DNA from: Schizochytrium sp. TIO01
Taxonomy: Eukaryota; Sar; Bigyra; Thraustochytrida; Thraustochytriidae
DNA length: 64,000 bases
Reading direction: 5' to 3'
Assembly: GCA_004764695.1 (NCBI GenBank)
Contig: SMSO01000033.1
Span: 2,123,001-2,187,000 of the forward strand
This document shows positions 18,586 to 64,000 of the stretch, one piece after another. The translations under genes and the position numbers were made by a program. The notes beneath the pieces are model-generated. The model saw only the letters and a program-made list of their open reading frames with translations. It was not told where the DNA came from and made no database searches. Positions within the stretch are counted from its first letter, which is position 1. Each line of letters begins with the position of its first letter.

Positions 18586-21992
<3,407 letters not shown>

Positions 21993-22186: not shown

Positions 22187-24180
22187 ACAAGCAAGTAAGA
22201 CAGGAAGGAAGAAAGGAAGAAAGAAAGAAAGAAAGAAAGGAAGCATGAGTCCTGATGAGTTTTTTTTTTAAATTTAATATTAAACTCGAAAGTTGGCTGC
22301 TTGTCTGTCTGTCTGTCTGTCTGTCTGTAAGTCTGTCTGTTTTAACCCTGTCTGTTGTTTTGGCGTGCTTCTTTCGAAAGAATTCTAGAAAAGAAAAGAA
22401 AAAGAATACCGCTTGCATGACAAGCCCAGATAGGCGATACTATAGGTGCGCGCTAGCAAGCCAAAATCTCTCTCTCTCTCTCCCTCTCTCCCTCTCTGGA
22501 TTTTGCTGAGCGAGTTCTTCTTTTCTCTCTTCTGTTGGATTGGCTTGCAAGCTGGGTTGCAAGAGCTTGGTCGGTGGAGAGAGCAAGCAAGCTAGGCGAA
22601 GAAGCAACCGCAGTAAAGGTGGGCCCTGATCTTCTGTGAAAGCTGTGAGTTTGGCCTTCCCCGTGAAGATCAGCCATCTTGCTGAGAGACAGCAGTCCTG
22701 AAGGTTCGCTCCTGAGTCTCGCTCCTCAGAGATGTTTTAATGTTTTATTACTAGTACTTTATATATATTTAAAACATAGATTTTTAGTTCGCTGAGTAGT
22801 GAATCGTTAGGTAAGTCCTACCGCGAATATAGAACGAGACTTGTTCTTTGAGAGAACAATGAGAAACTTTCGAGGAAACTCACGACAAAGAGCTTTTCCT
22901 CTGTAAAAGCTTCCCGATTACAATGTGGAGAAGCAAAAAAGAGAAAAGTAAAAGAAACTGAAATTCTTCCTTCCTCCCTCCCTCTCTCTCTCTCTCTCTC
23001 TCTCTTTTGCTTCGTCTCTCTGTCTCTCAGTTTCACTCTGTCGTTTCCTCTTCCGCTGTAAAGTAAAGTAAAGTCTCCTCTCTCTTTGTTTCGCTCGTTT
23101 AGTCTCTCCGTTTTAACATGTAGACAGCGCTATATTTTCATCTTCCTCCTTCTTCAGCCTTTCCCTTCGCCTTCCTCTCCTCTTCCTCTCCTTCAATCGA
23201 TCAAGGAAGGAACTTTAAAAAAAAAAAATGTTCTCTTCTAATTATAATAACAACAATAAGACGGAAAGACAGGCGAGATCTTTTTTCTTTTATTTAATAA
23301 ATAAAAGAAAAGAAAATGACTAAATAAAAGAAAAGAATACTAATAAAGAGGCAAAGCTGGAGATTAAAAAAGTATTCTGAGTCATGCGCTTTCTTTTTAT
23401 TCATCACTTTCATAGTTTTTATTACTGTCCAGCACACGACCAGGCAGAACAGAAAGCAAACCACAAACATCGAGCGAGCGAGCATTTCAAGCGCACCTAA
23501 AGAACAAAGCAATCAGCCCGTCGCGAAGCATCCCAGCAAACTCGAAACTCGACGCCGCCCGCACAACAGCAAAGTCAACCTAAGGAATCCAACTACAATA
23601 GCACGAAGCCAAACTTCGAAGCTTGTTAACTCTTCCTCTTCGTCTTCGATCCATCAGGCCCGCCCGTCCTCGGCCGAGCCAGCTTTTGCCTGTATACAGC
23701 AAGAGCAACAACAGCAGCAGGAAGACCCTGAGGCGGCCTTGCACCAGCACAGCAGTCGAGACAAACCCGTCGCGCAGGGTGCGTGACGTGCAGCAACGAG
23801 TGACTGACTGACCCGGCACAGCGGACCCGCAAAAGGGAGAATCCGCCTGCGTGACCAGGACAGATCACAAGAGGCCTTCTGGCAGCAAAGAACATCAAGC
23901 AGCAGCCTAGAATCCTAATATCTTGTCTTGCACGAGATTGTCATTAGGTACTAGCAGAAGCCCAAAGCTCTCGTGTGGACTAATTCTTCTCAATCTTCGG
24001 TACATTCGGAAGGAAAGGAAGAGGACGAAGAGTGGTCTTAACTCTCAGTTCTAATACTAGCCTCAAGAATTCCCAGCGAGTCTTGAGCAAAGCAAACCAG
24101 AAACACTCGGCAAGATCGCTCCCTAAGCGATCGAGACGTTGTATATCAGTAGAATACCCTTGCAATACAAATCAGAGACA
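22187..24180. other. Intergenic DNA and probable 5' region of the downstream gene
   Basis: The stretch holds a CTGT repeat at about 22302-22328 and CT/TC-rich tracts near 22468-22497 and 22982-23004. From about 23.6 kb the composition becomes less repetitive as the gene starting at 24181 approaches. I could not place a promoter or a transcription start. Confidence 0.5.
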
Positions 24181-25710
24181 ATGGCACCCACTGACGTCGC
24201 CACCTCAGTGCGCAAAGTCCCCGGACTTACCATTGGATCCACAGTTCTCCAGACAGGCAATGATTGGGACCTTGACGACGACTCAAGCATTGCTCTCGCC
24301 GGCAGCTGCGGCACAGAAGCTCCTGCTATGCACCACTACTCTTCACCCTACATGCATCAGCACCAGCCAATGCACCAACATATGCAATTCCCAACCGGAG
24401 CCCGTACGGTCAAGGAGGCCCAAATGAATAACAACTTTGGTCACAGCGAAGCCAGCATCGGTAGCCACGTCATTTCCGCACTCGGTGCCGTCAAGGCAGC
24501 CGTGGATAAGGCACAGCGCCCTGGCCAAGTTCAGGCTGTTGTGCCGCTCCAGGGCATGGGCAACGGTATGGGCAACCAGATGCTCTTCATTTGGGTTCCT
24601 GAGGCGCTTTTTACCACATCTTCTCTCTCCAAGCAGATGCCTTGCCCTCACTGCTCCTCAGTTCGTGATGTGGACAACGGCGAATGGCCGTCAGATTTTT
24701 GGTTCGCCCGTGACCAGGACACCTTTATCGTAGCTAAACAGTACACCTGCCACTCGTGCGCCATCTCGTTCAGAGGATGGCACCCAAAGACCGTTCAGGC
24801 GCTCCCGCGAAACCTTGCAGAGAAGTTCCCCGTGCCCGTGGACGCCTTCTCCTCAAGCAAGTTCGCCTTTTTGTACAAGACTGTGCCAGCAGAGACATCC
24901 CGCCCGGCGCCCTTCCCTGTGCCGGAGCAGCTTAACAACCTGAACAATGGCAACAGTCTTAACCTCGGCCAGATGGACCCGATCCAGCTGCTGAGATCTA
25001 CAAGCGAGATCTCACTTTCATGTGAGAGTCTCCCAAACATTGATATTGATAGGTTCGTGGGAGCCGAGTGCGAGGACCAGAATGAGCTCAACATGTGGGG
25101 CGCCGACGATGCTATGTTCGATCTGAGCAAGCTTGAACCGCTTCCATTGAACCGAAATGCATCTCTTTTCAGTCTTCGTGGAGGCAACGACCCGCTCGCT
25201 GACCTTTCGACATCAGACTCCGCCGACATGATGTCACAACAGCAGCAACCAATTCTTCCCATGCACAACCATAACCAATTTAACGCAGGACATGCACGCA
25301 TGAACCTTGGTGGACACAGTGATGTAACCTCAATGCTTCCGCACGGTAGCTTTGCCTCAACCCCGAGCATGGCCAGCCACGCATCGTTTGAGTCAGACCG
25401 GACGCCGCCGTTCTCTCCGGATTCGTCTCACATGGGAGATACCATGAAGGAAGATATTTTCAACACATCATCTCCGGATGCTACCATGGCTCATGCAAGC
25501 ATGACCGCCACACGCCGCTCAATTCAGTTTTGCAGTGTTTGTTTTGGTGTCAGGCGCCAGAGTGGACAACTCGTGGCCGGACACCGCCCTGACGGGTTTT
25601 GCCCTGTGAAGAAGCGCAAAGCAACCACTCAAGAGAAGCGCGAACTCCGCCGCCGCCGCCAGAAGATGCGACGTGCGATCAAGAAGCGCAAGCAGCCTAT
25701 CAACGCCTAA
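24181..25710 (+). CDS. Putative nuclear regulator with a zinc ribbon and C-terminal C2HC/basic module
   Basis: This gene encodes 509 residues. The frame is open a further 14 codons upstream but has no ATG there, so I start at the ATG at 24181 (context acaATGGC). Residues 155-193 contain CxxC (155, 158), 31 residues, then CxxC (190, 193). The Trp- and Pro-containing sequence after it recalls zinc ribbons of the DUF6729 type; that resemblance is tentative. The middle (about 205-435) is low-complexity, rich in Ser, Asn, Met and His. The C-terminus has C451, C454, H468 and C474 in the pattern C-x2-C-x13-H-x5-C, followed by a strongly basic segment with an RRRRQK motif that could be a nuclear signal or a DNA-contacting helix. 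The same C-terminal module occurs in the minus-strand gene at 33540-35444, so the two are paralogs in that part. Zinc binding and a regulatory role are inferred. The coding region shows no intron. Confidence 0.85.
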   Translation: MAPTDVATSVRKVPGLTIGSTVLQTGNDWDLDDDSSIALAGSCGTEAPAMHHYSSPYMHQHQPMHQHMQFPTGARTVKEAQMNNNFGHSEASIGSHVISALGAVKAAVDKAQRPGQVQAVVPLQGMGNGMGNQMLFIWVPEALFTTSSLSKQMPCPHCSSVRDVDNGEWPSDFWFARDQDTFIVAKQYTCHSCAISFRGWHPKTVQALPRNLAEKFPVPVDAFSSSKFAFLYKTVPAETSRPAPFPVPEQLNNLNNGNSLNLGQMDPIQLLRSTSEISLSCESLPNIDIDRFVGAECEDQNELNMWGADDAMFDLSKLEPLPLNRNASLFSLRGGNDPLADLSTSDSADMMSQQQQPILPMHNHNQFNAGHARMNLGGHSDVTSMLPHGSFASTPSMASHASFESDRTPPFSPDSSHMGDTMKEDIFNTSSPDATMAHASMTATRRSIQFCSVCFGVRRQSGQLVAGHRPDGFCPVKKRKATTQEKRELRRRRQKMRRAIKKRKQPINA

Positions 25711-33539: not shown

Positions 33540-33971
33540 TCAAGCAGATTTCTCTTCTTCCGGGCCCTTGCGCCTATGTATGGCCCTTCGCAACTTTTGC
33601 CGCCGTCTCCTTAGTTCTTTCTTCTCCTCTGCAGTAGCTCTGCGTTGAGTGACAGGGCACCAGCCGTCTGGACGATGCCCTCCAAATAGTTCGCCACTCA
33701 CACGACGTATGCCTAGACATGACGAGCAAAACTGCGTTGCACGGTTGCTGCCACGCATGCTACACGCTGCCATAAGAATGACGTCCGGAGACGACCCAGC
33801 CAGAACAGATGCCATGGCAGGATCTGCAGCTTTTGCAGCTTCGGCTTCGCGCTGAATGATAGCATTTTGCGCAGACATAAGCAGAGGACTGCCTTGTTGA
33901 GGTTGTGGGTGTTGTAATTCTGGAGAAGATGCCTGAGATACGATTTGCTGCTGTTGCTGCTGCTGCTGTTG

Positions 33972-34020
<49 letters not shown>

Positions 34021-35299
34021 ATTTGCTGCGCAAGATGCAGCCCAATCTCGTTCTCTTGATCAGTGTGCTGCGAAGTTGCGTACGGCACAGGCACTGGAGG
34101 CGCTGACAATGAAGAAGAAGATGAGGAAGACGCTCCATCGTGAAAGGCTGGTTGGGTGAAACCTGTGCTGACGACGGGGTTGTGCGTATAGATGGCAGTC
34201 TGGTCAGGATAATTCCAGAACGTCTTGTGCGTAGGCGGCTCGTGCTTAGACTGTGCAAGGTTAGTAACGAGTGCCTGAGCAGCGCGGAGAGAGTCGGGTG
34301 TGGATGATTTGGACGGAGGGTGGTCCACATGATCTGAGGGCGGGATATCGGTTTCACTATCTACATCGTACTTGCGGCGCTTGCGAATCCTAGAGCTGGC
34401 ACTGCCACTAGAATCGCTTCCTGCAGGGGCATTTGACATCGGAGACGAAGGGCTCTCCGATGTCTGGATCGTCAGGCTCACAGCCTCCTGCTCTTTGCGT
34501 TGGGTCTCGAGCAGACGTTGTCGCTGAGCTTCCTGAGCCCGACGCAGGTCCGCCTGCTGCCGACCATGTTGCAAAAGCATATGAAGCTGCTCCAATTGCT
34601 GCTTTGCATGCGTATCAGAGTCCTGCGATATATTTGTGGCAGAATTCGAAGATCCTGACGAGCTCGATGTGGACGCGGAGCTGGATTGTTTCGCTACTGA
34701 CGCGTTATCTGACAAAAGTCCAAGACCTTGTGAATCATCTGCAGATGCCAGCTGCGATATTGACGCCAGTGCTTGTGCTCCCCTTGATCTCAGACTCCTT
34801 CCGTTGCTGCTGTTCTTGATTTCCTCGGTTCTGTTGTTACCGCTGCGGCTGTTGACGGTGGTGGCGTTCTTGCCAAAACCGTCCACACCGTTGCGGGCGT
34901 GCTTGAACTGCGTGTTGGTGTTATCCCCAAACACCTCGCACTTTTGCTCTTCGATAGAGTCAGCGTTATGTGCGTTGCTCAAACTGTTCGTGCCACTGCC
35001 GAAGCCGTGACTATTGGCGCTACAGGAGGCGCGCCTCTCCACGGGCAGCATATGCGGCGAGGGCGGGAGCGAAGGTTGTGAAGGCTGCGGTGATTGTGGA
35101 GACTGCAGCGATAGAAACGGAACGTTTTGTGCTGCAGCTGGGCCGCCCTGTGTGGAAATGTAAAAGACCGGAACGCCTGGCGAAAGTAGAGGCTGAGGCA
35201 CTGGTTGCTGATGAGGATGACCACACTGCGCAAAGCTTTGCGTCGCGAAAGCTGGTTGCGGCAAGAACTGTTGCTGCTGTGGCTGTGCCTGGAAACTCA

Positions 35300-35331
<32 letters not shown>

Positions 35332-35444
35332 GTGTGTTGGAGTTGCTGCCCCGCCACGAAGGCGGCGGGGCACACGCCGGCGGTAGGTGTAGATGCGGAG
35401 GTGAAGCGGGCAGGCTGCTGCGTCTTGACAGCGCCCGCCTGCAC
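33540..35444 (-). CDS. Gln-rich putative nuclear regulator with C-terminal C2HC/basic module
   Basis: The open frame gives about 634 residues counted from a GTG at 35444; the frame continues upstream to a stop near 35535 without any ATG. The true N-terminus is therefore unknown: a short upstream exon, a non-ATG start, or a first Met at about residue 131. The protein is low-complexity and rich in Gln, Ser and Pro, with Gln runs near residues 39-48 and a long one at about 475-500 (the CTG/TTG-rich DNA at 33945-34020). The C-terminus holds C573, C576, H590 and C596 in the pattern C-x2-C-x13-H-x5-C, then a basic segment with RRRRQK, closely matching residues 451-500 of the gene at 24181-25710. 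The plus-strand gene's zinc ribbon is absent here. Transcription-factor-like function is inferred from the Gln-rich tracts and basic module. Confidence 0.8.
33945..34020 (-). repeat. CAG/CAA tract encoding polyglutamine
   Basis: The plus strand shows a long CTG/TTG run, which on the coding strand is CAG/CAA and gives about 25 Gln in a row. The part at about 33979-34020 is nearly pure CAG. It is the longest coding simple repeat in the window and could vary in length between strains. Confidence 0.93.
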
Positions 35445-50353: not shown

Positions 50354-53300
50354 ATGCCCCTCTATCTCCAAAAGCGACGAACCTCGTCACGCTCGGTAGC
50401 GCCTTCAGATTATGATAAATCGCAAACTATTAGAAGCCTGCTCGAGTCAGGTGGAGCTCCTCTCACAAGCGAGTCTCGAAGAAATCAAGTATTTGGTACT
50501 TTCGGTTTATTCGGCTATGTGCTGGCTAGTTCATTGATCCCAACCTTCATTACTTTCAGAGATTATGATACAGACACAAAACATTTAGCAGGGGCAGTGG
50601 CTACAGCTTGCATCGCCAATATCATTTTCACCATCGAAACGCTAGCAAGCGTACAATTCAGGATATTGTTTTTTCTTCAAAAGATGAAGAACCCCATCAC
50701 CCTTCTGACAACTATACCATGGTCTCTTATTTCGTTGGCAGTTTTTGGAGACTCGATTTATACCCATGTAGCACTTTCTCTTTTCATTCTACGTTTGGGA
50801 AGCGCTACGGTTACGTACTGGCCATCATTTCTTGCCATGATTAAAAGAATATTTCCGAACCCACCTTTACCGATTATTCGCTTAACATGGCTTGCTGTTG
50901 TCATTCTGTGTATACAGGCTTTAACTTCAAGCACATATTACTTCCTCGGTACACACAGTACTGTAGGCTCTTCATGGATTGACGTTGATGATCTTCGTGA
51001 TGATAACTCCACAAGACAATTGGAAGATCCTAGTTCCGCGGGTACGCTTCGGTTTGCGCGGTCTTTTTATTATGTGTGGCAAACTCTTCTTACTTTGGGT
51101 TACGGTGATGTAGCTCCTGTGGCTGCCATTGAGCGCGTCTTTGGACTTATCCTTTGTCTCGCTGGAGTCTTTTTGATGGCTTACATGATTGCAAACTTGA
51201 CATCGTTCCTTGTCAATCTCGATTCCACGCCAGCTGCTCATCGTCACACTGTAGATAGCGTCGATGCTTTTCTCTCTGCTCAAGAAATTCCCTCTGTGAC
51301 ACGAAAGATTGTTCGGCGAGCACTTGATCGGGTTTGGATACGCTCGAAAGGTCTCACACGCAAACGGGTCTTCGATGACTTGCCTCCAGCACTTACGAGA
51401 AAGATCCTGGAATTCAAAGCCCAAGCTATAATTTCCTCTCCACTGTTTTGGGAACCAGAAACTAGGGACCCATGCTTTCGAGTCATTTTGTATCTAGTAG
51501 ATAAAGTTGAGCCTTCGATTTTTGATGTTGGCCGGACCATCCGTGACCCCTGGGATATGATACCATATCGCCCTGGGCTTATGTGGTTCCTTATGAATGG
51601 TACTGCATCGAAAAGACGACCAAAGAATAACCGTGCAGCACTAAGAATGGCTCTAGGGGATCCTGCAACACCAGTGAGAAGATCCTTCCGTGCTCAAGCG
51701 CTCTCTAAATTCACTACCTCAAGTCATGCCGAAGCACCTGGGCAAGATCCGGGAGAGAAATACCAGGTCAATGATCCTCGAGTCCATCCCAACGATATGG
51801 AATATGCAGCTCTAGAGCGTAGTTTTACGAACTCATCAGCTGTATTGTGGGGAGGCACTGCCAAAGGACGCAACCTGTACGAGCCACATGAAGATCTCAT
51901 CTCCGAGATTCACGATAACTACCCTAATATTCTCCTACCTGGAAGGTCCGTTGGCGCCCTTGGCTTCTTCAATGTTTTGCATTGCCCTCCCCCAAGATAC
52001 GTGGCTCTAACACGATGTGAAATTCTGTTTCTGAATTATGTTGATTTTCGTCGCATGGCACTTCTCTTCCCAGAATGGAAAATGGAAGAGACATCCTCAC
52101 ACGTGGTTCGCGCCATGGATGATAGAAGGAGGACAGAAAGTGATGAAGAGCCACAGATCGTGTACACGCCCAAGCTACCTATTGAGCTTGACTCTAGAAT
52201 CATCAATCAACTGGATGCAGAATGTTCTTACTCGTCTCTAGCGGTAGAAAGCGACCCTGAAGACGGTAATTCTACAGATGACAGTACTGGACCGGGTGAT
52301 GAAATGAAGCTAAATCATAGTTCTGATGACACACTGAATCTCTCAAGCTCTTTAAAACGATCAGGAGGAGCGACCAAATCGAAAAGGCGAACATCCTCAA
52401 AAGGTAACCCGCGCCGAGCAAGCACAAAAATTGCTGCGCTCATGCAGCAGCAAATCAATGAGAAGGGTCAACAGAAAAAAGGTTGGGCAAAACTCCTTGC
52501 CAGATTCGAACACAAGCCAGGAAGCCTGATTGATGTGACCTGGGATTGTGTACTGGCGATTGTCTTTACCTCGTATGGAATTTTCATTCCTATTCACATT
52601 GCCATGATTGTTGCAGGCATTCCTCTGCCTGCTGCATCATTGCTCCTAGGCTTTGGGGCGTTCATTGGAGATTCAATTGCCATTGCGAGCTGGAGGCTCC
52701 GACCTATTCTCTGTCCTCGAGACGAATCCGATGCTGAAAAGAAAAAGTCGGCAAATGTAACTGACGCCTTGATCCTGCAAACATCTGGCCATCGACTAAG
52801 TGGTGCATTTATATCTGCTGAGAACCGTCGAGCATCAAGGCAAGGCTCGATGTCACGTCGGAAATCTGTATCGACCCAAGTTGCACTTTCCCAGGGTTTG
52901 TGGTCATCACACCAAGAAAAATTGGCCCGCGTGCGTGCAGAAATGGCTTCTCGCGTGTCGCGAGTGATCAATCAAGCTCTTTCTTTTGCTGAGATTCTCT
53001 TATCGTGTCTCATGTTTATAACCTTGGCCCTTTCCTTTGCAATAGCTCTAGGAAACTACTCGAATGATCGCCAGCAAGAGCTTCGACGAGTCATGCATAT
53101 AATGCGTACGCCCTTCCTTATCCGACTCTTTAGCTCAGGTCGTTTAATTGATCGATTGTGTAATCATGTCCAGATGTGGATTGCACAACGGAAGCTTGCC
53201 GAGGCTGTTCGTCTTGATGACTTAACTCCAAATAACACGCCAGGGGATGAACTCATAGCGAAAAATCGGATGGCAAATAGTGAAATCGAAGAGTTGGCGG

Positions 53301-56300
53301 GAGGGGAGAAAAATAAGGTGTTCATCTCTGCGCGACTCTGTGTGTATTTTGTCTTGTGGGCTCACTTTACCGCATGCTTCGGCCTGGTAATCGCTGAAGA
53401 AAGTAGTATCGGATCAACGCGAACATCAGTGGCTAGTAAGTACATTGTGGGCATTTATTGGTCTCTCACAACAATTACAACCACTGGGTTTGGAGACATA
53501 GTACCTGATTCAACTCGTGATTCTTTGGTTACAACCACCTTTGCGATCATTGGTATTGCAGTGTACTCCTGCTTGGTGTCATTTATCGGGACTCTATTGA
53601 AGGATACGGAATTCTCAGATCACAATATGACACATCAACGAACTTGTGTGATGGCACTTCTTTTTGATAAAGAGATCTCGATGCATATACAAACAAAGGT
53701 GTCTCAATATTTACAATACGTTGAAGCACGGGATATTCTTGCCTTTCGTAGAGTTCTTGGGATCTCAGAAGACTTGCAGGCCCAAAGGTTTCGTCACTAC
53801 TCTCGGGTAAAGCGAGATAACATCCTCTACAACGTCTCCTCAGTGCCAATTAAGGAAGAAAGTGTGTTGTCAAAAACTAGTCCGCCCTCAAGTCATGACT
53901 TCCTGAATTACTCAACCTTCCTAATAAAAAGTTGCGACCGGACAACTTGTCCCGAGTCATTTGATTCAGATTTTCTTTGTGCTCGGGAACGCGATCAACT
54001 ATTGTTTGATCTGACTAGAGACATTTTAAAGAGCTCAACACTTCTTTCAAATGTTTCTGAAATTTTTCTTCATGAGGCTTGTACCCTATTAGACTACCGA
54101 GTCGTAAGTTGTGGAGATATTGTGATTTCAGAGTCTGACCCAGAATGGAGCTTGTTTTTTCTGTTTCATGGTTCCATGGAAGTAAGGGGCGAGAACGACG
54201 TAAAAATAAGAAACATTGTAGAAGGTCAAGTTTTTGGCGAACAATCTTTTGCCCTAATGTCACATACAATCCGAGAAAACTTTGACAATGATGATCATAT
54301 CAAAACAAAAGATTTCGAAACAGACAGAGAAGAAGACTTTGAAAACCAAGCTGACGCTGCACTTGATCTCAGAACCTCTAGAGGCGGCATGAAAGGAAGA
54401 ACTACTTCAACAACTGATCATAGTCGTGTTATTGCTTTAACACCATGTGAGCTATGGGTCTTGCAGGGTCGTTCTCTCCGATATCTCGAGTCAATGTTTC
54501 CGCAAGATAAGGAAAAGATCATCGCAGCTGAAACAGCCTTGAACATTGTTGAGCATCGCGACACTGTATCAAACAACCTTCGAAGAGGTGGCAAACTTGC
54601 GAAGATGGCGGGTGCAGAAGAACTCGTTGTTGCTCAGCGTAAAGGTCATACTGTCTTTGCAATCAATTCCCGGACTCAACAATGGTGGAAACTTTTGATG
54701 TTTTTCGTGCTGATGTGGAATTTATTCATTTTTCCTTTGGACCTTGCCTTTGCCTGGAGTATGAATTCCCCTGGAAGACCACACATTCTCGAGAACATGC
54801 TTGATGTTTTGCTCATCATCGATGTATTTCTGCGATTAGAGTTCTTCGAACTTGAAATCACCGATGGTGAGCGAATTTCAGATCCCAAAGAATTTAGGCC
54901 GCTTTATCTCCGATCATTGTATGGGATCGCTGATATCATTTCCGCTGTGCCAATTGATCTTTTTGTGGTGGCAGCAGGAAAAGGACTTATTCCCGTCTCA
55001 CGCATCAATAAGCTATTTCGAGCTGTGCGTTTGTTTGACCATGTTTCGTCTCTTGGAAGCCATGTTAAGAATCAAGCACACAAAAGCATTATCACAATCT
55101 CTAAGCTGATATTTGTTTTCTTGCTAGTGGCCCATTGGGAAGGATGTCTTTTTTATTCTGTAGGCATGGCTTCAGTGATCAATGGAGAGGCATCATGGGT
55201 TGATGATAATCATACAGGTTTGTTGCAGCTTCCAGGAGATAACAGTCAACAATCGGAACAAAATAAAGGAGTGGCTTTTATTGACGATAGTAGCAAATGG
55301 TACGAACATTATATTAGTGCATTATATTTCGCAGTCGCCGCTAGCACGTCTGTAGGTTATGGCGATGTGGTACCTGTCTCGCATCTCGAAGTTCTCTATA
55401 CCATTGCTGTCTTGCTCTTTGCGGGTTTGCTGTACGCTGTGATTATTGCTTTTTTGGAAGACATTGTGGCACAATCAGACTTGACCTCTACTTTGTACCA
55501 AAAGAAGGCTGATCTTCTTGGAGCATTTACTCAAATGCATCGCTTACCAAATAAGGTAAAAGCTGGTATTCGCAGCTACCTTTTTCGCATTTGGATGCAC
55601 CAGAAAGGTGTCAAAACAGAGAAAATTCTGAACTATCTGGGCAAGTCTCTCAGAGAGCAGATCACAATTGAAATTGTTGGGGAGCAAAACCTTCGAAAAA
55701 CCCCCGTCATTGGACCATCTCGTCTGTGGCGGTTTCTTGTGCATGATTTTAAATTCGATCGCTATCGCAGAAACTCTCTATTATACTACGCTGGTCAAGA
55801 TGCGGAAAATGTTTTCTTTATTCTGAAAGGTACTGTGGAAATTGTTTCTCCTGACCTTGAAAAGGTATTCTACACAGTTGAAGCAGGAGGGATATCTGGC
55901 ATAGATAGCTTTTTCAGACCGCTTCAACCTGGATATATGGCGTCCGCGCGCTGTAAAGGTAGTTGCGAAGTTGCAATATTGAATCGAAGGGTTATAAATG
56001 AAGCTTTAGCCAACAATCCCCACCTAATGAATCTATTCAAAGAAGAACTGCGTGTATTTCTTAGCAAGCCTAGTCAATTAGAACACACAAAGAGGAACCT
56101 GGACAAGCGCAAACTAACCAAGATGTTTCAAGATGGTGAGGAGCGAGAGAACTCGGGCAAGAGAAAATTTGACCTCAACAACTACATTCTTTTACCGTCA
56201 GACCCTGGCTACACGTTGTTTTATATATTCGTGTTTGCTATCACGATTGTCAACGGAATTATTGTTCCTTTGTGGGCTACTGCCGCAGCGTCTGAGGCTT

Positions 56301-58018
56301 CAACAATTTATACTTCCTCCACGTCATTAGTTTTCGTAATTGTCAATATACTCATGGACATGGTTCTTTGGCTTTTTATTGGCTTGCAACTGACCGTTAT
56401 TGCTCAGGTTAAGAATGGCCAAGTTATGAATACAGTTTCGAGTATTCGACATGAATACATGAGATCAGGGAACTTTGCCATGGATTTAATAGCAACTTTT
56501 CCACTAGACTTCATCGCACTCGCAGCAGGGGCAAGCTTAAGAGTCGTCTTTGCTCTCCGTGTTTTGAGATTGCTCTGGCATCATCATTTACCCGTCATTG
56601 TCAATACATTTAATAATTCGATTGATGCTTCATCTAGTGTTACTATATCAAGCGGGTACAGGCATCTTCTGAAAATTGTTGCGACTGTCATCATTGCCAC
56701 ACATTGGTTAGCATGCGGATATGGACGTTTATTATTATATACACGGGAAGACTACCAGATCGTGAGTATAACAGGCTCCTACATCAATCACCTATATTAT
56801 ACGTTCTACTCCGTCACCACAATTGGATATGGTAATGTGGAAGTCATAGGTGTATCTGAGAAGATTTATGCCATCATGGTTATGGTTGTTGGCTCATTTC
56901 TCTGTAATGCTGGCATTGTCTCAACATTGGTCTCAATTGTTGAAATTGAGGATTCAACTGCTGCTGCAGGTAATCGTCGGAAGGATGCCGCATTGCAAAT
57001 GGCCAACTGCTTCCAGTATCCGGACCACATAAAGAATATCATTCGTACATATTATGATAATATCTCTGAAAAGAATGGCGTAAATGATCAAGAGTGCCTG
57101 GATAGTTTACCATTATCTCTGAAGAGCACGGTCATGGACTTCCTTGCATTTAGTGCTGTTCGAGCTAGTCCAGCGCGGTGCAAGTGTATTTGGGATTTCC
57201 GAGACGGCCTTTTAGTGACCTTAGTTCGAAAGATGCGCATTGAGACGACCATTCCAATGGAGTTGCTTTATAAAGCAAACGAGCCTATGTTCCACGTCAC
57301 AATTGTAATGCAAGGATGTGTCCTTGTCTTTGGTGCTCATGATATTCGTCCCGAAGCTTTGAATCAACTTGCATCATCACCGTCTGCTCAAGAGCGCTCA
57401 CGCAATGGCTCTGTAATTGAAGAATATCTGCCTCCAGAGCAGCGTAGCCTTGAACTATGGAACCCAGGACTCCTTCTCCCTAGTCTAGCATGGGGTGAAG
57501 CATCGCCCGTTACCTTGGTATCAGGAAACTTTTGTGAGATGCTACTATGCGACAAGGATACATATGAAGCTATCGCTGCAATGAGACCTTGCATTGGTGG
57601 TCTATATTCTTCAATTTCAGAGCTATGTGACTCAAAGGAGGACCTGAAACACCTGTGCACATTCGCGAAACGTAGAGTTATCTCTGAGAGTATTGATTTT
57701 GTTCAAGCTGTGAAAGATTACCGGAATGCTCCAAACAATACTACAATTCTGGAAAAGCGTGCACGCGTCATCGTTGATCGTTTCATCCAACCCGAGAGTG
57801 AAGAGTCGATCAATATTAATCCTGAACTTGTGAGCTCGATTGTTGATCGTGTAACAAAAGATCCGAGCCACGAAATATTTGATGAAGCTTATAAAATTGC
57901 AGTATCAAGTCTTGAAAAGGACATCCTACCTCAATTTAAGGCCTCGGAAGAATATGAAAAAATGATTGCAAACATTCATCGAAGATCAGTCTTAGATTTT
58001 TTCCCTGAATCCTTGTAA
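50354..58018 (+). CDS. Four-repeat cyclic-nucleotide-gated-like K+ channel (CNGK-like)
   Basis: One uninterrupted frame encodes 2,554 residues with four channel units in tandem. Each has about six membrane segments, a pore, a C-linker and a CNBD-like domain. Selectivity filters are GYGD (249-252), GFGD (1045-1048), GYGD (1668-1671) and GYGN (2158-2161), so K+ selectivity is expected. Approximate membrane/pore regions are 48-289, 725-1082, 1444-1706 and 1953-2197. Repeats II-IV carry the S5 H-[WF]-x-x-C pattern of CNG/EAG channels, and III and IV the S3 motif with Pro-Asp (VPID, FPLD). CNBD-like regions lie at about 370-575, 1235-1385, 1806-1895 and 2291-2480; only the second keeps an FGE phosphate-cassette motif (1294-1296). 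Repeat II has a long cytoplasmic insertion (about 790-868). This is the architecture of animal CNGK channels. Ligand response is uncertain because the cassettes look degenerate. It should sit in a plasma or ciliary membrane. Its stop faces the esterase stop 175 bases away. Confidence 0.92.
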   Translation: MPLYLQKRRTSSRSVAPSDYDKSQTIRSLLESGGAPLTSESRRNQVFGTFGLFGYVLASSLIPTFITFRDYDTDTKHLAGAVATACIANIIFTIETLASVQFRILFFLQKMKNPITLLTTIPWSLISLAVFGDSIYTHVALSLFILRLGSATVTYWPSFLAMIKRIFPNPPLPIIRLTWLAVVILCIQALTSSTYYFLGTHSTVGSSWIDVDDLRDDNSTRQLEDPSSAGTLRFARSFYYVWQTLLTLGYGDVAPVAAIERVFGLILCLAGVFLMAYMIANLTSFLVNLDSTPAAHRHTVDSVDAFLSAQEIPSVTRKIVRRALDRVWIRSKGLTRKRVFDDLPPALTRKILEFKAQAIISSPLFWEPETRDPCFRVILYLVDKVEPSIFDVGRTIRDPWDMIPYRPGLMWFLMNGTASKRRPKNNRAALRMALGDPATPVRRSFRAQALSKFTTSSHAEAPGQDPGEKYQVNDPRVHPNDMEYAALERSFTNSSAVLWGGTAKGRNLYEPHEDLISEIHDNYPNILLPGRSVGALGFFNVLHCPPPRYVALTRCEILFLNYVDFRRMALLFPEWKMEETSSHVVRAMDDRRRTESDEEPQIVYTPKLPIELDSRIINQLDAECSYSSLAVESDPEDGNSTDDSTGPGDEMKLNHSSDDTLNLSSSLKRSGGATKSKRRTSSKGNPRRASTKIAALMQQQINEKGQQKKGWAKLLARFEHKPGSLIDVTWDCVLAIVFTSYGIFIPIHIAMIVAGIPLPAASLLLGFGAFIGDSIAIASWRLRPILCPRDESDAEKKKSANVTDALILQTSGHRLSGAFISAENRRASRQGSMSRRKSVSTQVALSQGLWSSHQEKLARVRAEMASRVSRVINQALSFAEILLSCLMFITLALSFAIALGNYSNDRQQELRRVMHIMRTPFLIRLFSSGRLIDRLCNHVQMWIAQRKLAEAVRLDDLTPNNTPGDELIAKNRMANSEIEELAGGEKNKVFISARLCVYFVLWAHFTACFGLVIAEESSIGSTRTSVASKYIVGIYWSLTTITTTGFGDIVPDSTRDSLVTTTFAIIGIAVYSCLVSFIGTLLKDTEFSDHNMTHQRTCVMALLFDKEISMHIQTKVSQYLQYVEARDILAFRRVLGISEDLQAQRFRHYSRVKRDNILYNVSSVPIKEESVLSKTSPPSSHDFLNYSTFLIKSCDRTTCPESFDSDFLCARERDQLLFDLTRDILKSSTLLSNVSEIFLHEACTLLDYRVVSCGDIVISESDPEWSLFFLFHGSMEVRGENDVKIRNIVEGQVFGEQSFALMSHTIRENFDNDDHIKTKDFETDREEDFENQADAALDLRTSRGGMKGRTTSTTDHSRVIALTPCELWVLQGRSLRYLESMFPQDKEKIIAAETALNIVEHRDTVSNNLRRGGKLAKMAGAEELVVAQRKGHTVFAINSRTQQWWKLLMFFVLMWNLFIFPLDLAFAWSMNSPGRPHILENMLDVLLIIDVFLRLEFFELEITDGERISDPKEFRPLYLRSLYGIADIISAVPIDLFVVAAGKGLIPVSRINKLFRAVRLFDHVSSLGSHVKNQAHKSIITISKLIFVFLLVAHWEGCLFYSVGMASVINGEASWVDDNHTGLLQLPGDNSQQSEQNKGVAFIDDSSKWYEHYISALYFAVAASTSVGYGDVVPVSHLEVLYTIAVLLFAGLLYAVIIAFLEDIVAQSDLTSTLYQKKADLLGAFTQMHRLPNKVKAGIRSYLFRIWMHQKGVKTEKILNYLGKSLREQITIEIVGEQNLRKTPVIGPSRLWRFLVHDFKFDRYRRNSLLYYAGQDAENVFFILKGTVEIVSPDLEKVFYTVEAGGISGIDSFFRPLQPGYMASARCKGSCEVAILNRRVINEALANNPHLMNLFKEELRVFLSKPSQLEHTKRNLDKRKLTKMFQDGEERENSGKRKFDLNNYILLPSDPGYTLFYIFVFAITIVNGIIVPLWATAAASEASTIYTSSTSLVFVIVNILMDMVLWLFIGLQLTVIAQVKNGQVMNTVSSIRHEYMRSGNFAMDLIATFPLDFIALAAGASLRVVFALRVLRLLWHHHLPVIVNTFNNSIDASSSVTISSGYRHLLKIVATVIIATHWLACGYGRLLLYTREDYQIVSITGSYINHLYYTFYSVTTIGYGNVEVIGVSEKIYAIMVMVVGSFLCNAGIVSTLVSIVEIEDSTAAAGNRRKDAALQMANCFQYPDHIKNIIRTYYDNISEKNGVNDQECLDSLPLSLKSTVMDFLAFSAVRASPARCKCIWDFRDGLLVTLVRKMRIETTIPMELLYKANEPMFHVTIVMQGCVLVFGAHDIRPEALNQLASSPSAQERSRNGSVIEEYLPPEQRSLELWNPGLLLPSLAWGEASPVTLVSGNFCEMLLCDKDTYEAIAAMRPCIGGLYSSISELCDSKEDLKHLCTFAKRRVISESIDFVQAVKDYRNAPNNTTILEKRARVIVDRFIQPESEESININPELVSSIVDRVTKDPSHEIFDEAYKIAVSSLEKDILPQFKASEEYEKMIANIHRRSVLDFFPESL

Positions 58019-58193: not shown

Positions 58194-59984
58194 TTAGTTA
58201 ATTTCATATCCTATGGTATCGAAAACATCGCAAAAGGGCTTGCGAAAGTTGTTGATTGTTTCAAAAGGTATTCCCATGGAGAGAATGGATTGGTTCTGCG
58301 TGGGGTTAAAGTGAGGAAATACTGGCATCGAATACATATTCGATCCCCGAAGCCAAGGATGTTGATGTAACGCATTTGGATCGCCATTTGCAGCAAAATT
58401 GGCCCAAAGAGCTTGCATTTTAGCACTCAGGACCTCCTCTTCTGGTGTGAGAATGGGATGATTCCCGTCAGGTGAGAGAAAAAATGTATTAAAGAGGACA
58501 CTGAGGTCCGTGCCGTGGCAAACATATGGGATACATTCTGGATCTGTCTGATTCTGGATATAAACACTGAATGAATCCAAGTGGTTGTATAGATAGACAT
58601 AAACGGGCTGAGTCTTAGCTACATTAAAGGCAAATGAGCGAATTGAGCAAGTGAAGATGTAGTCCGTACCAATCTGTGCTAGAAAGGGCCGTGTATCCTC
58701 TCTATCATGAGTTTCATTCTCCACAGGTGGCCCATAAGCCTTGAACACCTTGAGAGAATTTTTAACACCAAAAATTGCTAGCATGAATAATTCATAGTCT
58801 AGCTTTGACATAGGCTCAGACGAGGCTTTCCAAATAAATTGCACCGCTTCATTTGCTACACTCCCGATAATAACCGGAACTGGAGCAAGCTTACCTCGAA
58901 TTGCTGCTTCAATAGGAGATAGTGGCAGCTCTACACCATCCACTACAGGCGTCCAAGGCATAAACTGATGCAAAATCATTCCTGGGCGCAAAGGAAATTT
59001 GATTCTCTCCTGTGCAGTGAGCACTACTTCCTCTGAAAGATTCCTCAAACAATCTTCCTCCTCTTCTATAGTTTCCCACCAACGATAACATCCAACATAG
59101 CGCACAAATGATTCGCTCAACATCTGAGACTTACTCTCAGTTTCTGTTGGTAGAGCCACTGGATCTGACATCACAATAGCATGCTGGAAAAGAGACCAGC
59201 TTCGTGGACTTGCAAGGTGAGAAGCTACAGCAAACCCTCCTGCACTTTGTCCAGATATTGTCACCTTGTAAGGGTCGCCACCAAAGGTTTGGATATTCTG
59301 TTGCACCCACCTAAGTAGCATTCTTTGATCCTGCAAATGAAAGTTCCCATGAATTGATCCCCTTTTAGTATATAGACCACCCAATACGCCAAGGCGATAG
59401 TTGAAAGTGACAATGAGCACCTCTTGAGCCGAGGCCCACCGAGATCCATGATAAAGTTTAACCCCTCCCGCTCCTGCAATATAGTTTCCTCCATGTATGA
59501 AAACGATCACTGGAAGAGAAGCTAGAGTGTAGCTTTCTTCTTGATTACGAGGAGTGAAGACATTCACGGTTAGGCAGTCTTCGGAAAATGATTTTGGGCA
59601 AGTCATTTCGGGTCTTGGTAGATCACAGGTCTGAATACATCCAGGGCCAAACTTCTTTGCATCGTAGACGCCCTGTGGAAATTTCTTGGGTGGTTGCGGT
59701 GCAGCAAACCGCAGTGAGCCGAGAGGAGGGGTCGCATAAGGGATGCCTTTATATACACAAGTTGGGAAATCAGCAAACCATTCGCCTCTCACCTCGCCTT
59801 GGCCTTCAAGCAATGCTCTACAAGAATTCGCAAATGCCAAACGGCCTCTTTCTACGACAGTCGTCTCAACCGCTTGCCCTGTTGATACCAGCACGTACAA
59901 AATCAGACTTGTCAAGAACTGCACTACTCTCCAAGCGCGAACAACGACTCCAGAACTGACGCAGAAAAGTCTCCAACAACGCAT
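58194..59984 (-). CDS. Type-B carboxylesterase (cholinesterase-like alpha/beta hydrolase)
   Basis: This gene encodes 596 residues from a true ATG at 59984, in one exon. Residues 19-38 are hydrophobic after a short basic start, which suits a secretion signal or a membrane anchor. The fold signatures are clear: GIPYATPPLGSLRF near the start of the domain, an oxyanion-hole HGG (in FIHGGNY), EDCLTVNVFTP matching the family's EDCL signature, and GQSAGG around the nucleophile Ser247. The other triad members are readable as Glu379 (in ANEAV) and His490 (in CHGTDL). All three are present, so the enzyme should be active on carboxylic esters; the substrate cannot be read from the sequence. The length is normal for the family. 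Cysteines near the N-terminal half are consistent with extracellular disulfides. Confidence 0.93.
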   Translation of the reverse strand: MRCWRLFCVSSGVVVRAWRVVQFLTSLILYVLVSTGQAVETTVVERGRLAFANSCRALLEGQGEVRGEWFADFPTCVYKGIPYATPPLGSLRFAAPQPPKKFPQGVYDAKKFGPGCIQTCDLPRPEMTCPKSFSEDCLTVNVFTPRNQEESYTLASLPVIVFIHGGNYIAGAGGVKLYHGSRWASAQEVLIVTFNYRLGVLGGLYTKRGSIHGNFHLQDQRMLLRWVQQNIQTFGGDPYKVTISGQSAGGFAVASHLASPRSWSLFQHAIVMSDPVALPTETESKSQMLSESFVRYVGCYRWWETIEEEEDCLRNLSEEVVLTAQERIKFPLRPGMILHQFMPWTPVVDGVELPLSPIEAAIRGKLAPVPVIIGSVANEAVQFIWKASSEPMSKLDYELFMLAIFGVKNSLKVFKAYGPPVENETHDREDTRPFLAQIGTDYIFTCSIRSFAFNVAKTQPVYVYLYNHLDSFSVYIQNQTDPECIPYVCHGTDLSVLFNTFFLSPDGNHPILTPEEEVLSAKMQALWANFAANGDPNALHQHPWLRGSNMYSMPVFPHFNPTQNQSILSMGIPFETINNFRKPFCDVFDTIGYEIN

Positions 59985-60429: not shown

Positions 60430-62472
60430 TTAATGCATGTCCATAAAAGTTCCGAAGCCACATTCCTGCAGAGTTCGTTGGCTGGTTTCCCTTTGGTTAA
60501 GTGTTCCTGGGGGCGCTTGAGACCCTGCAGCAGCTTCTTGGGCCAAGAGCCAAGCGGGTTTAAGAAGATGTGCTCCCCGCCCACGACCAGCTGTGGCTGG
60601 TGGTGCACTGGGCGCACTTGCCGGTGTCATCGGGGTACTCAGGTCTGTATTAAAGCGAAACATGTTTGTCCCTTCTTCTGGCATGGGAATCCCATCTTGC
60701 GCAGCCTCGGATTCCTCCTCGTCTTCACAATCAACCCCAAAAAATTTATCCACAAGACGGTGGGCGCGATATGACAGCTCGGAGTGAGCAGGTGGGTACT
60801 GTTGCATTTCGATGTATTCAAGCCCATCAATTCCTTCGTAATCTAAAACAAGCTGCTTCCCTGAGCGACCACCAAGCCGGCTCGCTGCAAAGGGATTACT
60901 GAGGCGCACAAGCACCATTTCTACAAAATCAAGTGCACGATAAACGAGCTCTAGATCAGGTGCTTTAAGAAATGAAATTGCATTTTCCAGCACTGCAGGC
61001 TCGGTTTCTGTATTGAGAACACCGATAAGAATGGACTCATCATCACGGTTTACAAGGTTCACCATCGCTGTCGCGGCCGCGTTAATGTGCTCGGCACGAT
61101 AGTGTGTAAAATACATACAAATCGGTTTGGCAAAGCGTGCTACAAGCTCCTTTGCCACAGCAACCTCTTCTGGTGGGGGCGAGTCCATACGAGGCTTGGT
61201 GTTCAAGGTGAGCAAGTTAGCCACAGTCCAAAGAGCTTCGTTGGCTTGGCGCGCTGGAGCACCATCCGCGAGCATTCGTTGAAGGGCGTCGAGGAAGCCA
61301 GGTTGCTGGCAAACTAAAACCACAAGCGAGGTCTGCTGACCAGGGCGATTCATACGCAGTGGAACCAGGTTAGACAGAGCGCGAAGCGCCGGAACGCAAA
61401 TAGACAGCTGGCCTTCGCAGCCTGTGAAAATGCGCACAAGGTAGTTGAGAACTTTCTGGTGCACCATGATAATGCAAAGGTGCGGTTCTTTGGCGCTAAG
61501 GAATGTGATCGTCCACAGAACTTCAACTATCATAAGGCCAGCCTCAGACTGTGGCCCTGATTGGATTGCCACTTCCGTAAAGTTTTCCAGCAATTCCACA
61601 AGAGCCAAGTGCGCTGCGGCGGAGAAAAAGGCCTTTCCAGAGGTGTTGTTCCCGCGCGCGAGGTTACAAAGCGCCCAAGCTGCAGTGCGCTTTATGCGAA
61701 GGTCCGAAACATTCACTGGTTCACGGAGCAGCACAACCAAATGGGGAATGAGACCAAGTTCCTGAAGTTTCTCGCGAATGCCTTGATCGTCGGCCGCCAT
61801 ATTTCCAAGTGCCCATGCAGCTTGCTCCTGAAGTCTCTTCCGACCACGCATCACAAGCGTAGCCAGTGCATTTGCAGCGCAGACTGTAGATGTGGTCTGC
61901 TCCGAGTTTCCAGAGGCCAAGTTCGTGATGCACCAGGTAGCATCAAGGATAGTATCCTCGCTAAAAACATTTTCTGAGTCCTGCAGAATTGGCAAAAGCC
62001 TCCTTGCAAGTTGCTTTTCCGTGCATAATTGCATCACAACGTCGTTCGTAACACAAAAATCCCCATTAGGGCTCAAGTCGACGTCGAAGGTGTCTCCAGG
62101 CGCAAATGAAAGCCATGTGCGTAAATTTGAGATTGCAAGAGCTGCTTTCGTCGGGACCAAGACATCTTCAATGGCCTGTGAAACTTGATCTGCAGTATAT
62201 CCAGGGTGCATCTCGCCGTTAGAGCTTGATTTCTCAAGAGCCTTGCGACGTTTGGCTTGTGCCACAACGCCGCGTTGGCGTTTACGAATTTCGACGGATC
62301 GCCTCACCCGGCCTTCACGAGCTAGAGAAGTATCCAAAGACTTGCGAAACGAGCTCCTGCCAGAACTTCCTGGAGTTCCAAGTTCTGCGTCAAATGTACC
62401 GCTTCCGCGGCTTCGAAAGGAGCCACTCTCGCCGCCTTGGAGGTTATCAAAATGGAGACCTTGAAAGCTCAT
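60430..62472 (-). CDS. Importin subunit alpha (karyopherin alpha)
   Basis: This gene encodes 680 residues. The frame is open eight codons further upstream but the first ATG is at 62472. An Arg/Lys-rich segment at about residues 55-82 fits the importin-beta-binding domain. From about 120 to 560 there are ARM repeats with the Trp/Asn pattern that grips classical nuclear localisation signals: WCITNLASG, WALGNMAAD, WALCNLARG, LWTITFLSA, LRALSNLV and LWTVANLL. Near 560-590 the sequence GIDGLEYIEMQQ followed by a KFFG block matches the last ARM repeat of importin-alpha, then comes an acidic stretch (DCEDEEESE). The protein is longer than the usual 520-550 residues because of a roughly 50-residue Ser/Gly/Arg-rich N-terminus and a low-complexity C-terminal tail of about 80. 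It would carry cargo with importin-beta through nuclear pores. Confidence 0.9.
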   Translation of the reverse strand: MSFQGLHFDNLQGGESGSFRSRGSGTFDAELGTPGSSGRSSFRKSLDTSLAREGRVRRSVEIRKRQRGVVAQAKRRKALEKSSSNGEMHPGYTADQVSQAIEDVLVPTKAALAISNLRTWLSFAPGDTFDVDLSPNGDFCVTNDVVMQLCTEKQLARRLLPILQDSENVFSEDTILDATWCITNLASGNSEQTTSTVCAANALATLVMRGRKRLQEQAAWALGNMAADDQGIREKLQELGLIPHLVVLLREPVNVSDLRIKRTAAWALCNLARGNNTSGKAFFSAAAHLALVELLENFTEVAIQSGPQSEAGLMIVEVLWTITFLSAKEPHLCIIMVHQKVLNYLVRIFTGCEGQLSICVPALRALSNLVPLRMNRPGQQTSLVVLVCQQPGFLDALQRMLADGAPARQANEALWTVANLLTLNTKPRMDSPPPEEVAVAKELVARFAKPICMYFTHYRAEHINAAATAMVNLVNRDDESILIGVLNTETEPAVLENAISFLKAPDLELVYRALDFVEMVLVRLSNPFAASRLGGRSGKQLVLDYEGIDGLEYIEMQQYPPAHSELSYRAHRLVDKFFGVDCEDEEESEAAQDGIPMPEEGTNMFRFNTDLSTPMTPASAPSAPPATAGRGRGAHLLKPAWLLAQEAAAGSQAPPGTLNQRETSQRTLQECGFGTFMDMH

Positions 62473-64000
62473 GTTGCCAAGCCAAGTCAATGTCAACGGC
62501 TACCCACAACTAAGCTTGATCAATATCTTCAATGGAACCCCCCCCGCCCAGTCTTCTCAAGACCTTGCAGTGCCCACGTCAAAGCCTCCAATCAGCTACT
62601 GTCCCCGCCCCCAAAAGCCACCAAGCACCGCTCTCGGGGATTGGATGTCCTCATGTAGCATTCATCATCTATCGCCATGTGACTTGCCAACGGTAGATTC
62701 AAGCTCTTCCTTGGGGGTTAATATAAAATTCTAAGTGCTCTTGTTTCTAACTTTCTAAGATATTCCAATGAAACCATGTGCTATCGGAGATTTTAAAACT
62801 TCCAAAGTACTCATCTCGGATAATCTTGGAGGAGAGTATAATGAGAGTTTGCAAAATAACTACTGCCATTTTAAATATGCTTGATAATGTATATAACCAA
62901 TGAGAACGCGGAGAATACCCCCTCCTGGCGCCGTTCACCGCTGGTGCGGGAGAACACTCGCTTCCTGTTCTTCTTTGCTTCTTGGCGAAGCTGGCCGTGT
63001 GTTTTTTCATTCTCTGCATCAATCGAAACTGCGAACCGTTCGCGGAAACTCATCGCTCATCGCACGCAGACAGACGAGTTTCATTTTTACTCCCACTCAG
63101 CCCAGGGGTCGTGGGAAGCTGAAGAACAGCAGCTTCTTTTGCAAGAACCATTGCACTCGATCGAGTTTAACATTCATTCACAGAGATCTATTGTAATTCT
63201 GATTTTGTACCTAGCGCGATCTCAGATTGATCGCTGTGAGTTACTCTACTGTATATCTTAGCGTTTACTTCACTTTTATGCACTATTCTCTACTGTAGCC
63301 ACAAGTTTCCTCTGCTGTATGGGGCCTCTTACTCTACTTGCGCACCAGCCATAGGACGCAGATTTGTTCTATTGTAGCTTCACGTATAGTCTACTTTATT
63401 CACTGGTAGCTCTATAGTACCCTACAGTGGGAAGGTAAAGACTGAATCAAACGCTGCCCTGGAAGGATCACAATGATCGAGAATGATAGTGATTGCGAAT
63501 AATATGAGGTATCTATTTGTTTTGTATTTCTGTGATTGTCCTTCAAGCAAATCCAGAACGCGACGCCGACTCGACATCTTTCCGAGTCCGCGAGCAAAAC
63601 TGCAACGGTGAGTATGTGCGATAGTGCTGGCGGCTGGGTTTCTACGCCACCGCCAGCTGGCGTTGGGGTGGTCTCTCTATATTGCCGTGTGTCCACGAAA
63701 GGGATCATGACTGAATGAACGGGTGACTGACGATTGAGCTTCTTCATATGCTTTATGTTCTTTTGGATTTGTTCTGTGTTTGTGCGCGGGCCTTGAATGC
63801 TATTGGATTTTGTGTGACGGTCGCACCTGGACCACGTGTCTTGGATGTGAATCCTTGACGATCGCTGCTGATGGATGTTAATCCTTTCGCGACTACTGGT
63901 TTTCGTGGCGTCGACCTAACCCCTGCGTTTTCGTTGCTTTCATTTGGTCTGATTCATGAACGCGATGCGATGGTTGACAACGATGAATTCACCATCGTTT
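62473..64000. other. Upstream region of importin-alpha and window edge; no supported gene
   Basis: Sequence just above 62472 should hold the importin-alpha promoter and leader, but I could not assign a core element. Minor open frames at 62881-63261 and 63412-63747 have no recognisable domain. A gene beginning past the window edge would not be detectable. Confidence 0.5.

Follow-up and report, generated by a model that had tools for sequence, protein, structure and literature searches.

The gene and its domains

The window (the whole 64-kb stretch of DNA analysed here) carries on its forward strand, at 50354-58018, a single open frame that runs from ATG to stop over 2554 codons with no ambiguous residues, and the N-terminal methionine of its product is aligned in all three relatives compared. 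The frame, Pfam and a profile reaching from S5 to the C-linker together describe a protein of four six-transmembrane (6TM) pore repeats with C-linker/CNBD-like regions, followed by a C-terminal RGS domain. Pfam places Ion_trans (1.9e-37) and Ion_trans_2 (3.1e-30) on four stretches each and cNMP_binding (1.7e-20) on two stretches only. The S5-to-C-linker profile, which we built ourselves from a seed that included the protein's own repeats, gives exactly four matches (E 1e-42 to 1e-55). The four-repeat observation is far beyond chance, and it bears out the first-pass annotation, which had described four pore units in one uninterrupted exon-like frame in a protist-like genome, the latter a reading that we accept. 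The RGS domain had been overlooked there, and its presence alters the likely function of the protein.

Repeat I, from S1 to the C-linker, spans residues 50-377 (50501-51484), with the filter GYG at 249-251 and a single positive charge in the S4 region; the CNBD-like region after it (residues about 360-590, 51431-52123) bears a long insert and is weak by sequence, giving a partial match only. Repeat II (residues about 725-1178, 52526-53887) has a long insert between its first helices and the filter GFG at 1045-1047, and its CNBD, also with an insert (residues 1229-1398, 54038-54547), retains the Glu and has Asp in place of the phosphate Arg in the CNBD profile alignment. The best conserved is repeat III (residues 1443-1793, 54680-55732; filter GYG at 1668-1670), followed by a CNBD at residues 1803-1888 (55760-56017) with Tyr1861 at the phosphate-binding Arg site and Ile at the Glu site. 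Repeat IV (residues 1951-2286, 56204-57211) has the filter GYG at 2158-2160 followed by Asn, and a CNBD-like beta-roll at residues 2295-2408 (57236-57577) that is predicted from structure and weak by sequence. The RGS domain, at residues 2421-2536, is encoded at 57614-57961.

Downstream of the channel, on the opposite strand, lie a carboxylesterase frame (58194-59984) and an Arm-repeat protein frame (60430-62496), and the channel and esterase frames end 175 bases apart. Rfam and tRNA scans of the 64-kb window found nothing.

Relatives with the same domain order

A whole-length protein search recovered P0002, a protein of 2554 aa from a separate source that differs from the window protein by 18 substitutions. 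Three further proteins, found by a protein search with repeat III, share the plan of four pore repeats and a C-terminal RGS domain, with a CNBD recognisable in each: P0007 (2736 aa), P0008 (2408 aa) and P0009 (2180 aa). Over the whole alignment their identity to the window protein is 31%, 26% and 30%, respectively. RGS is among the listed domains in four of the ten matches to that search (P0002, P0007, P0008 and P0009); P0010 to P0015 are without RGS in their listed domains, P0010 ending in the fourth pore, with its tail not covered. When the repeat III profile was used to look for homologues, nine matches were obtained, mostly weak. The genome to which the window belongs encodes a paralogue on another contig, L009, of 2863 aa with four repeats and an RGS domain (2.9e-8), and the four filters are intact in all five RGS-family proteins.

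Pore filters and voltage sensors

The filters of repeats I to IV read TLGYGD, TTGFGD, SVGYGD and TIGYGN, all of the K+ type, with the first filter Gly of LGYGD at residue 249, of TGFGD at 1045, of VGYGD at 1668 and of IGYGN at 2158. The motifs GYG, GFG, GYG and GYG that the first-pass annotation had placed at these four residues are exact in position, and its reading of a K+-type filter in every repeat holds. The GYG filter is found also in HCN channels. Ion selectivity is not readable from the filter motif, according to the available text of PMC7576140, and the "K+-selective" of the first-pass annotation is to be taken as putative. We regard the protein as likely to be a potassium-type channel. 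By eye, the S4 of repeat III carries Arg or Lys at every third residue, those of repeats II and IV carry several Arg and that of repeat I carries one. The S4 charge of repeat I is variable among the relatives, P0008 keeping several. The nearest solved relative of repeat III is KCNH1 (E 2.9e-40).

Nucleotide-binding domains

A C-linker/CNBD-like domain had been proposed for each repeat. For repeats II and III this stands by sequence (the two Pfam matches of the four repeats) and for repeat IV it rests on a predicted fold, obtained from an input alignment that included clear CNBDs of other repeats; in repeat I, with its long insert, it remains weak. A structure model made from four sequences had a mean pLDDT of 49.1 and was poor outside the RGS part, and a model from a 21-row alignment reached 78.2. 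The structure matches of the model were only channel chains, over model residues 5-481, and do not bear on the RGS part.

The phosphate-binding Arg column, which we take to correspond to R82 of CAP, could be read in 16 of the 20 CNBDs of the RGS family by CNBD profile alignment, and Arg occupies it in none of the 16, so that it is missing from the alignable domains of each of the five proteins. At this column of repeat III the four orthologues all have Tyr (Y1861 in the window protein, invariant among the four) and L009 has Thr; an alignment of repeat III to CAP puts the same Tyr at the Arg site. In the window protein itself two of the four domains were read, with Asp in II and Tyr in III, those of I and IV not reaching the column. 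The pocket Glu is kept in repeat II of three family proteins, including the window protein, and in repeat III of L009.

As a control we used the genome's own single-repeat channels, and seven of the eight that could be aligned (of nine) keep the Arg; the exceptions are L017, which is without it, and L014, whose frame ends before any CNBD. Three of the seven Arg-keeping controls (L015, L016 and L021) were outside the seed of the CNBD profile. Among other multi-repeat channels Arg is found in three of four domains of L011, two of four in fish CNGK and in P0011, one of three in P0010, one of two in P0003, none of three in L010 and none of two in L012. Loss of the Arg is thus not peculiar to RGS-bearing channels, L010, L012 and L017 likewise being without it. 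Because the phosphate-binding Arg is absent from every alignable CNBD of the family, conventional gating by cyclic nucleotides is improbable for the RGS family, and the description of the channel as "CNG-like" in the first-pass annotation is doubtful.

Channels and G-protein components in the same genome

The genome (64.06 Mb in 37 contigs) yielded at least 22 matches to the window protein, and ATG frames were read by script from 13 fetched stretches. It encodes at least two further four-repeat channels without RGS (L010, 2233 aa, and L011, 2576 aa), at least one two-repeat channel (L012) and at least nine single-repeat channels (L013 to L021, one profile match each); Pfam was run on L012 to L016 and L018 to L020.

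Putative partners of the RGS tail are present, with both G-alpha and RGS genes among the matches listed. The 22 G-alpha matches listed include 13 over the cut-off, 12 of them stop-free and one with in-frame stops; four of the 13 were inspected and the switch motifs DVGGQR and RT[ST]G are present in those four. The RGS matches listed number 46, all over the cut-off, some of them being two pieces of one gene, and the cyclase matches listed number 20, likewise all over the cut-off. Four G-alpha matches lie within about 26 kb at C30:1577709-1603772, and the G-alpha match at C4:1646414, with two in-frame stops, is about 10 kb from RGS matches. RGS domains are joined to BAR/PH/ArfGAP in L049, to EF-hands in L050 and to DENN/PDZ in L053; judging by such combinations, RGS shuffling may be common in this genome.

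Origin of the four-repeat chain

Whether the protein is a CNGK orthologue or an independent fusion had been posed in the first-pass annotation, together with a repeat-by-repeat tree as the way to decide, and this was the correct question to ask. The tree has 56 rows and 203 columns, repeat IV of P0010 filling only 45% of the columns; P0013 and P0016 (both with profile matches), the near-copy P0002 and the remaining profile matches were left out of it. It establishes the family's own repeats as orthologous by position and gives no signal for a pairing with fish CNGK. The five RGS proteins form one group for each repeat class, with support of 97/93 for I, 93/84 for II, 100/98 for III and 99/93 for IV. 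Within each class L009 is the first to branch, the other four standing together (99/94, 99/96, 93/76 and 100/88). We therefore consider the window protein more closely related to P0007 to P0009 than to its own paralogue, and place the four-repeat fusion before the duplication that gave rise to L009.

A second four-repeat family consists of L011, P0010 and P0011, again grouping repeat by repeat (98/92, 96/93, 100/97 and 99/96); L011 has no RGS, and a Pfam scan of P0011 found none. The two-repeat L012 groups with P0003 (99/94 for repeat I, only 81/47 for repeat II), apart from the RGS family, and the four repeats of L010 fall apart in the tree on long branches with no clear place. KCNH groups with the single-repeat L016 of the same genome (97/92). 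The four repeats of fish CNGK (P0012) group together at 98/46, a weak second support that comes with a long-branch warning.

When family and CNGK repeats were constrained to pair one class at a time, I with I to IV with IV, no pairing was rejected (AU p 0.385, 0.105, 0.155 and 0.237). Constraining all four pairs jointly with fish CNGK costs 25.4 log-likelihood units under LG+F+G4, a simpler model than that of the main repeat tree. Tested in a set of three trees, this constraint has p-AU 0.034 and p-SH 0.051; in a larger set of nine trees its p-AU is 0.077. The right pairing scores -23535.9, as compared to -23551.6, -23535.8 and -23534.1 for the wrong ones. In these comparisons, in which a single fish sequence stands for animal CNGK, no signal of repeat-by-repeat orthology with CNGK is seen, the right pairing being no better than two of the three wrong ones. 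One ancestral four-repeat chain for the RGS family, the L011 group and CNGK has p-AU 0.024; a common chain has p-AU 0.050 for the RGS family with the L011 group and 0.097 for the L011 group with CNGK. A tree that keeps the family and CNGK as two separate clades withstands the test (p 0.139 with three trees, 0.215 with nine). Three groupings of the family's own repeats are not rejected either: all four as one clade (AU p 0.216), I with III (0.404) and II with IV (0.548). Because the joint constraint is costly and gains nothing over two wrong pairings, an origin of the four-repeat chain independent of CNGK is favoured, not proven, by these trees.

The RGS tail

The RGS domain scores 63.1 bits in Pfam against a gathering cut-off of 23.9 (E 4.1e-17), and the solved structures nearest to it are RGS5 (3.1e-10), RGS1 and RGS2. 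In the first structure model its pLDDT blocks are about 70 to 87, and the predicted fold resembles RGS16 in the RGS16-G-alpha complex (2ik8_B; TM 0.91 over the target, rmsd 1.6).

The positions that contact G-alpha we take to be, in RGS4 numbering, E87, N88, N128, L159, D163, S164 and R167. Three of the seven are kept in the window protein (E87, N128 and D163) and three in P0009 (E87, N88 and S164), six in both P0007 and P0008 (all but L159) and one in L009 (R167), whose RGS domain is more degenerate than that of the window copy. Where RGS5 and two orthologues carry Asn, Ser and Arg, the window domain has Ser, Ile and Gln. Leu159 is missing in all five channel RGS domains and is present in 15 of the 20 other RGS domains fetched (20 of the 46 matches). 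In a tree of RGS domains, in which no branch was starred, the four orthologues group together (80/84) and L009, whose branch is very long, is the neighbour of RGS5 (88/78). Since the window copy has changes at several positions expected to contact G-alpha, most of which two orthologues retain, it is doubtful that this domain speeds GTP hydrolysis, and on these residues docking of G-alpha appears more likely than efficient GAP action.

Comparison with known systems

KCNH (EAG/ERG) channels include the best solved relative of repeat III, as given above. They are single-repeat proteins with an N-terminal PAS/EAG domain and differ in this from the window protein, in which the Pfam scan found no PAS family up to E 1. 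A further likeness is that KCNH channels have a CNBD without canonical nucleotide gating, as the available text of PMC7576140 has it.

According to the available parts of PMC7576140, PMC4749565 and PMC6259924, animals and choanoflagellates have four-repeat CNGK channels, and two-repeat CNBD channels occur in dinoflagellates and oomycetes. CNGK shares with the window protein the single chain of four 6TM repeats, the GYG/GFG filters, the C-linkers and the CNBD regions. It differs in several respects: an RGS domain is not mentioned for CNGK in the available text of PMC4749565 and PMC7576140 and none was found in fish CNGK P0012, in fish CNGK the Arg is present in the CNBDs of repeats I and III whereas the RGS family has it in none of the 16 alignable domains, and no repeat-wise grouping with the RGS family was recovered for the one fish CNGK compared. 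The two-repeat tandem channels are likewise protist internal fusions of 6TM-CNBD units, some with reduced CNBDs, but they have two repeats as compared to the four of the window protein. With regard to the tail, the 7TM-RGS protein AtRGS1 is similar in being a membrane protein that carries an RGS domain, and different in that its membrane part is a 7TM unit rather than a four-repeat channel; background on RGS domains and G proteins is given in the available parts of PMC3718340, PMC9694693 and PMC11061236.

Discussion

We think it rather probable that the gene encodes a one-chain, four-repeat channel of the CNBD superfamily with an RGS tail, likely of the K+ type, in which G-alpha bound to that tail is predicted to link gating to G proteins. 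The four repeats would close into one pore as a pseudotetramer. Voltage would act mainly through repeats II to IV, since the S4 of repeat I is nearly uncharged, with the most regular S4 in repeat III. Cyclic nucleotides would not gate the channel by the usual contacts, and the CNBDs would then serve, like those of KCNH channels, as a structural gating ring. Active G-alpha would bind the RGS tail and shift channel opening; G-protein coupling appears the most likely use of the tail.

Several other explanations have to be weighed against this one. For instance, the RGS tail might be a membrane-held G-protein brake (a GAP), with the channel part as its voltage-sensing or anchoring carrier and not its target. 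Membrane-bound RGS has a precedent in plant 7TM-RGS proteins (PMC3718340, in its available text), and P0007 and P0008 keep six of the seven contact positions compared. The erosion of these contacts in the window copy (three of seven) and in L009 (one of seven), and the four intact filters in all five proteins, make this somewhat unlikely in our judgement. Alternatively, the channel might still be gated by cAMP or cGMP through non-canonical contacts, the RGS domain being a mere scaffold. The CNBDs retain their fold, the Glu is present in repeat II of the window protein and 20 cyclase matches over the cut-off are listed for the genome; in view of the Arg count of none in 16 for the family and seven in eight for the single-repeat channels of the same genome, we hold this to be decidedly improbable.

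The two remaining alternatives concern the history of the chain. The protein might be a distant CNGK orthologue that inherited its four-repeat chain with animal CNGK and gained the RGS domain later, as the shared layout of four 6TM-CNBD units and the GYG/GFG filters would suggest; the pairings taken one at a time are not rejected, nor is the joint constraint in the set of nine trees. The repeats of fish CNGK nevertheless group with each other, the joint constraint costs 25.4 units, with AU p 0.034 in the set of three (one CNGK only being compared), and two of the wrong pairings do at least as well as the right one; we consider such common descent unlikely. Finally, the first-pass annotation had named a mis-join of neighbouring tandem genes as its refuting case. 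We rejected, and give practically no credence to, the idea that tandem channel genes and an RGS gene were wrongly joined in assembly or annotation, for which we found no support beyond that caveat: P0002, of the same length, comes from a separate source, the same order recurs in P0007, P0008 and P0009 and in the paralogue L009 on another contig, and the repeats are orthologous one by one in the tree.

Returning to the G-protein-coupled channel that we prefer, we speculate, with rather less than even confidence, that one polypeptide unites a K+ pore and a G-alpha receptor, that there is one RGS domain per pseudotetramer and hence one G-alpha per pore to gate it directly, that nucleotide sensing has been lost and that this arrangement evolved apart from both GIRK and CNGK. 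The family is a conserved variant of which we found no description, combining an RGS tail with a four-repeat CNBD channel of the K+ type, probably of protists. A search of literature titles and abstracts, with subscription journals and preprints mostly outside its scope, found neither an RGS-bearing channel nor a stramenopile four-repeat CNBD channel. If the RGS tail binds G-alpha, the protein would provide a direct link of fixed stoichiometry from G proteins to membrane potential, in a eukaryote rich in G-alpha genes. The presence in the same genome of a second four-repeat family (L011, with P0010 and P0011) also allows the idea that single-chain channels arose repeatedly to be tested.

Other features of the window and genome

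Two otherwise low-complexity frames of the window, at 24139-25710 on the forward strand and 33540-35444 on the reverse strand, have in common a C-terminal Cys-rich basic motif, QFCSxCxGxRRxSGxLxxGHRPDGxCPV followed by an Arg-rich stretch, that has no Pfam match and is possibly an undescribed nucleic-acid-binding domain. At 18334-19062 on the reverse strand there is a long (ISLY)n simple-repeat frame that is unlikely to be a gene. Elsewhere in the genome, C4:608161-617209 matches a PfaA-type PUFA synthase with repeated middle segments, a thraustochytrid hallmark that makes the organism a likely labyrinthulomycete, and further, weaker matches lie about 14 kb from it on the other strand.
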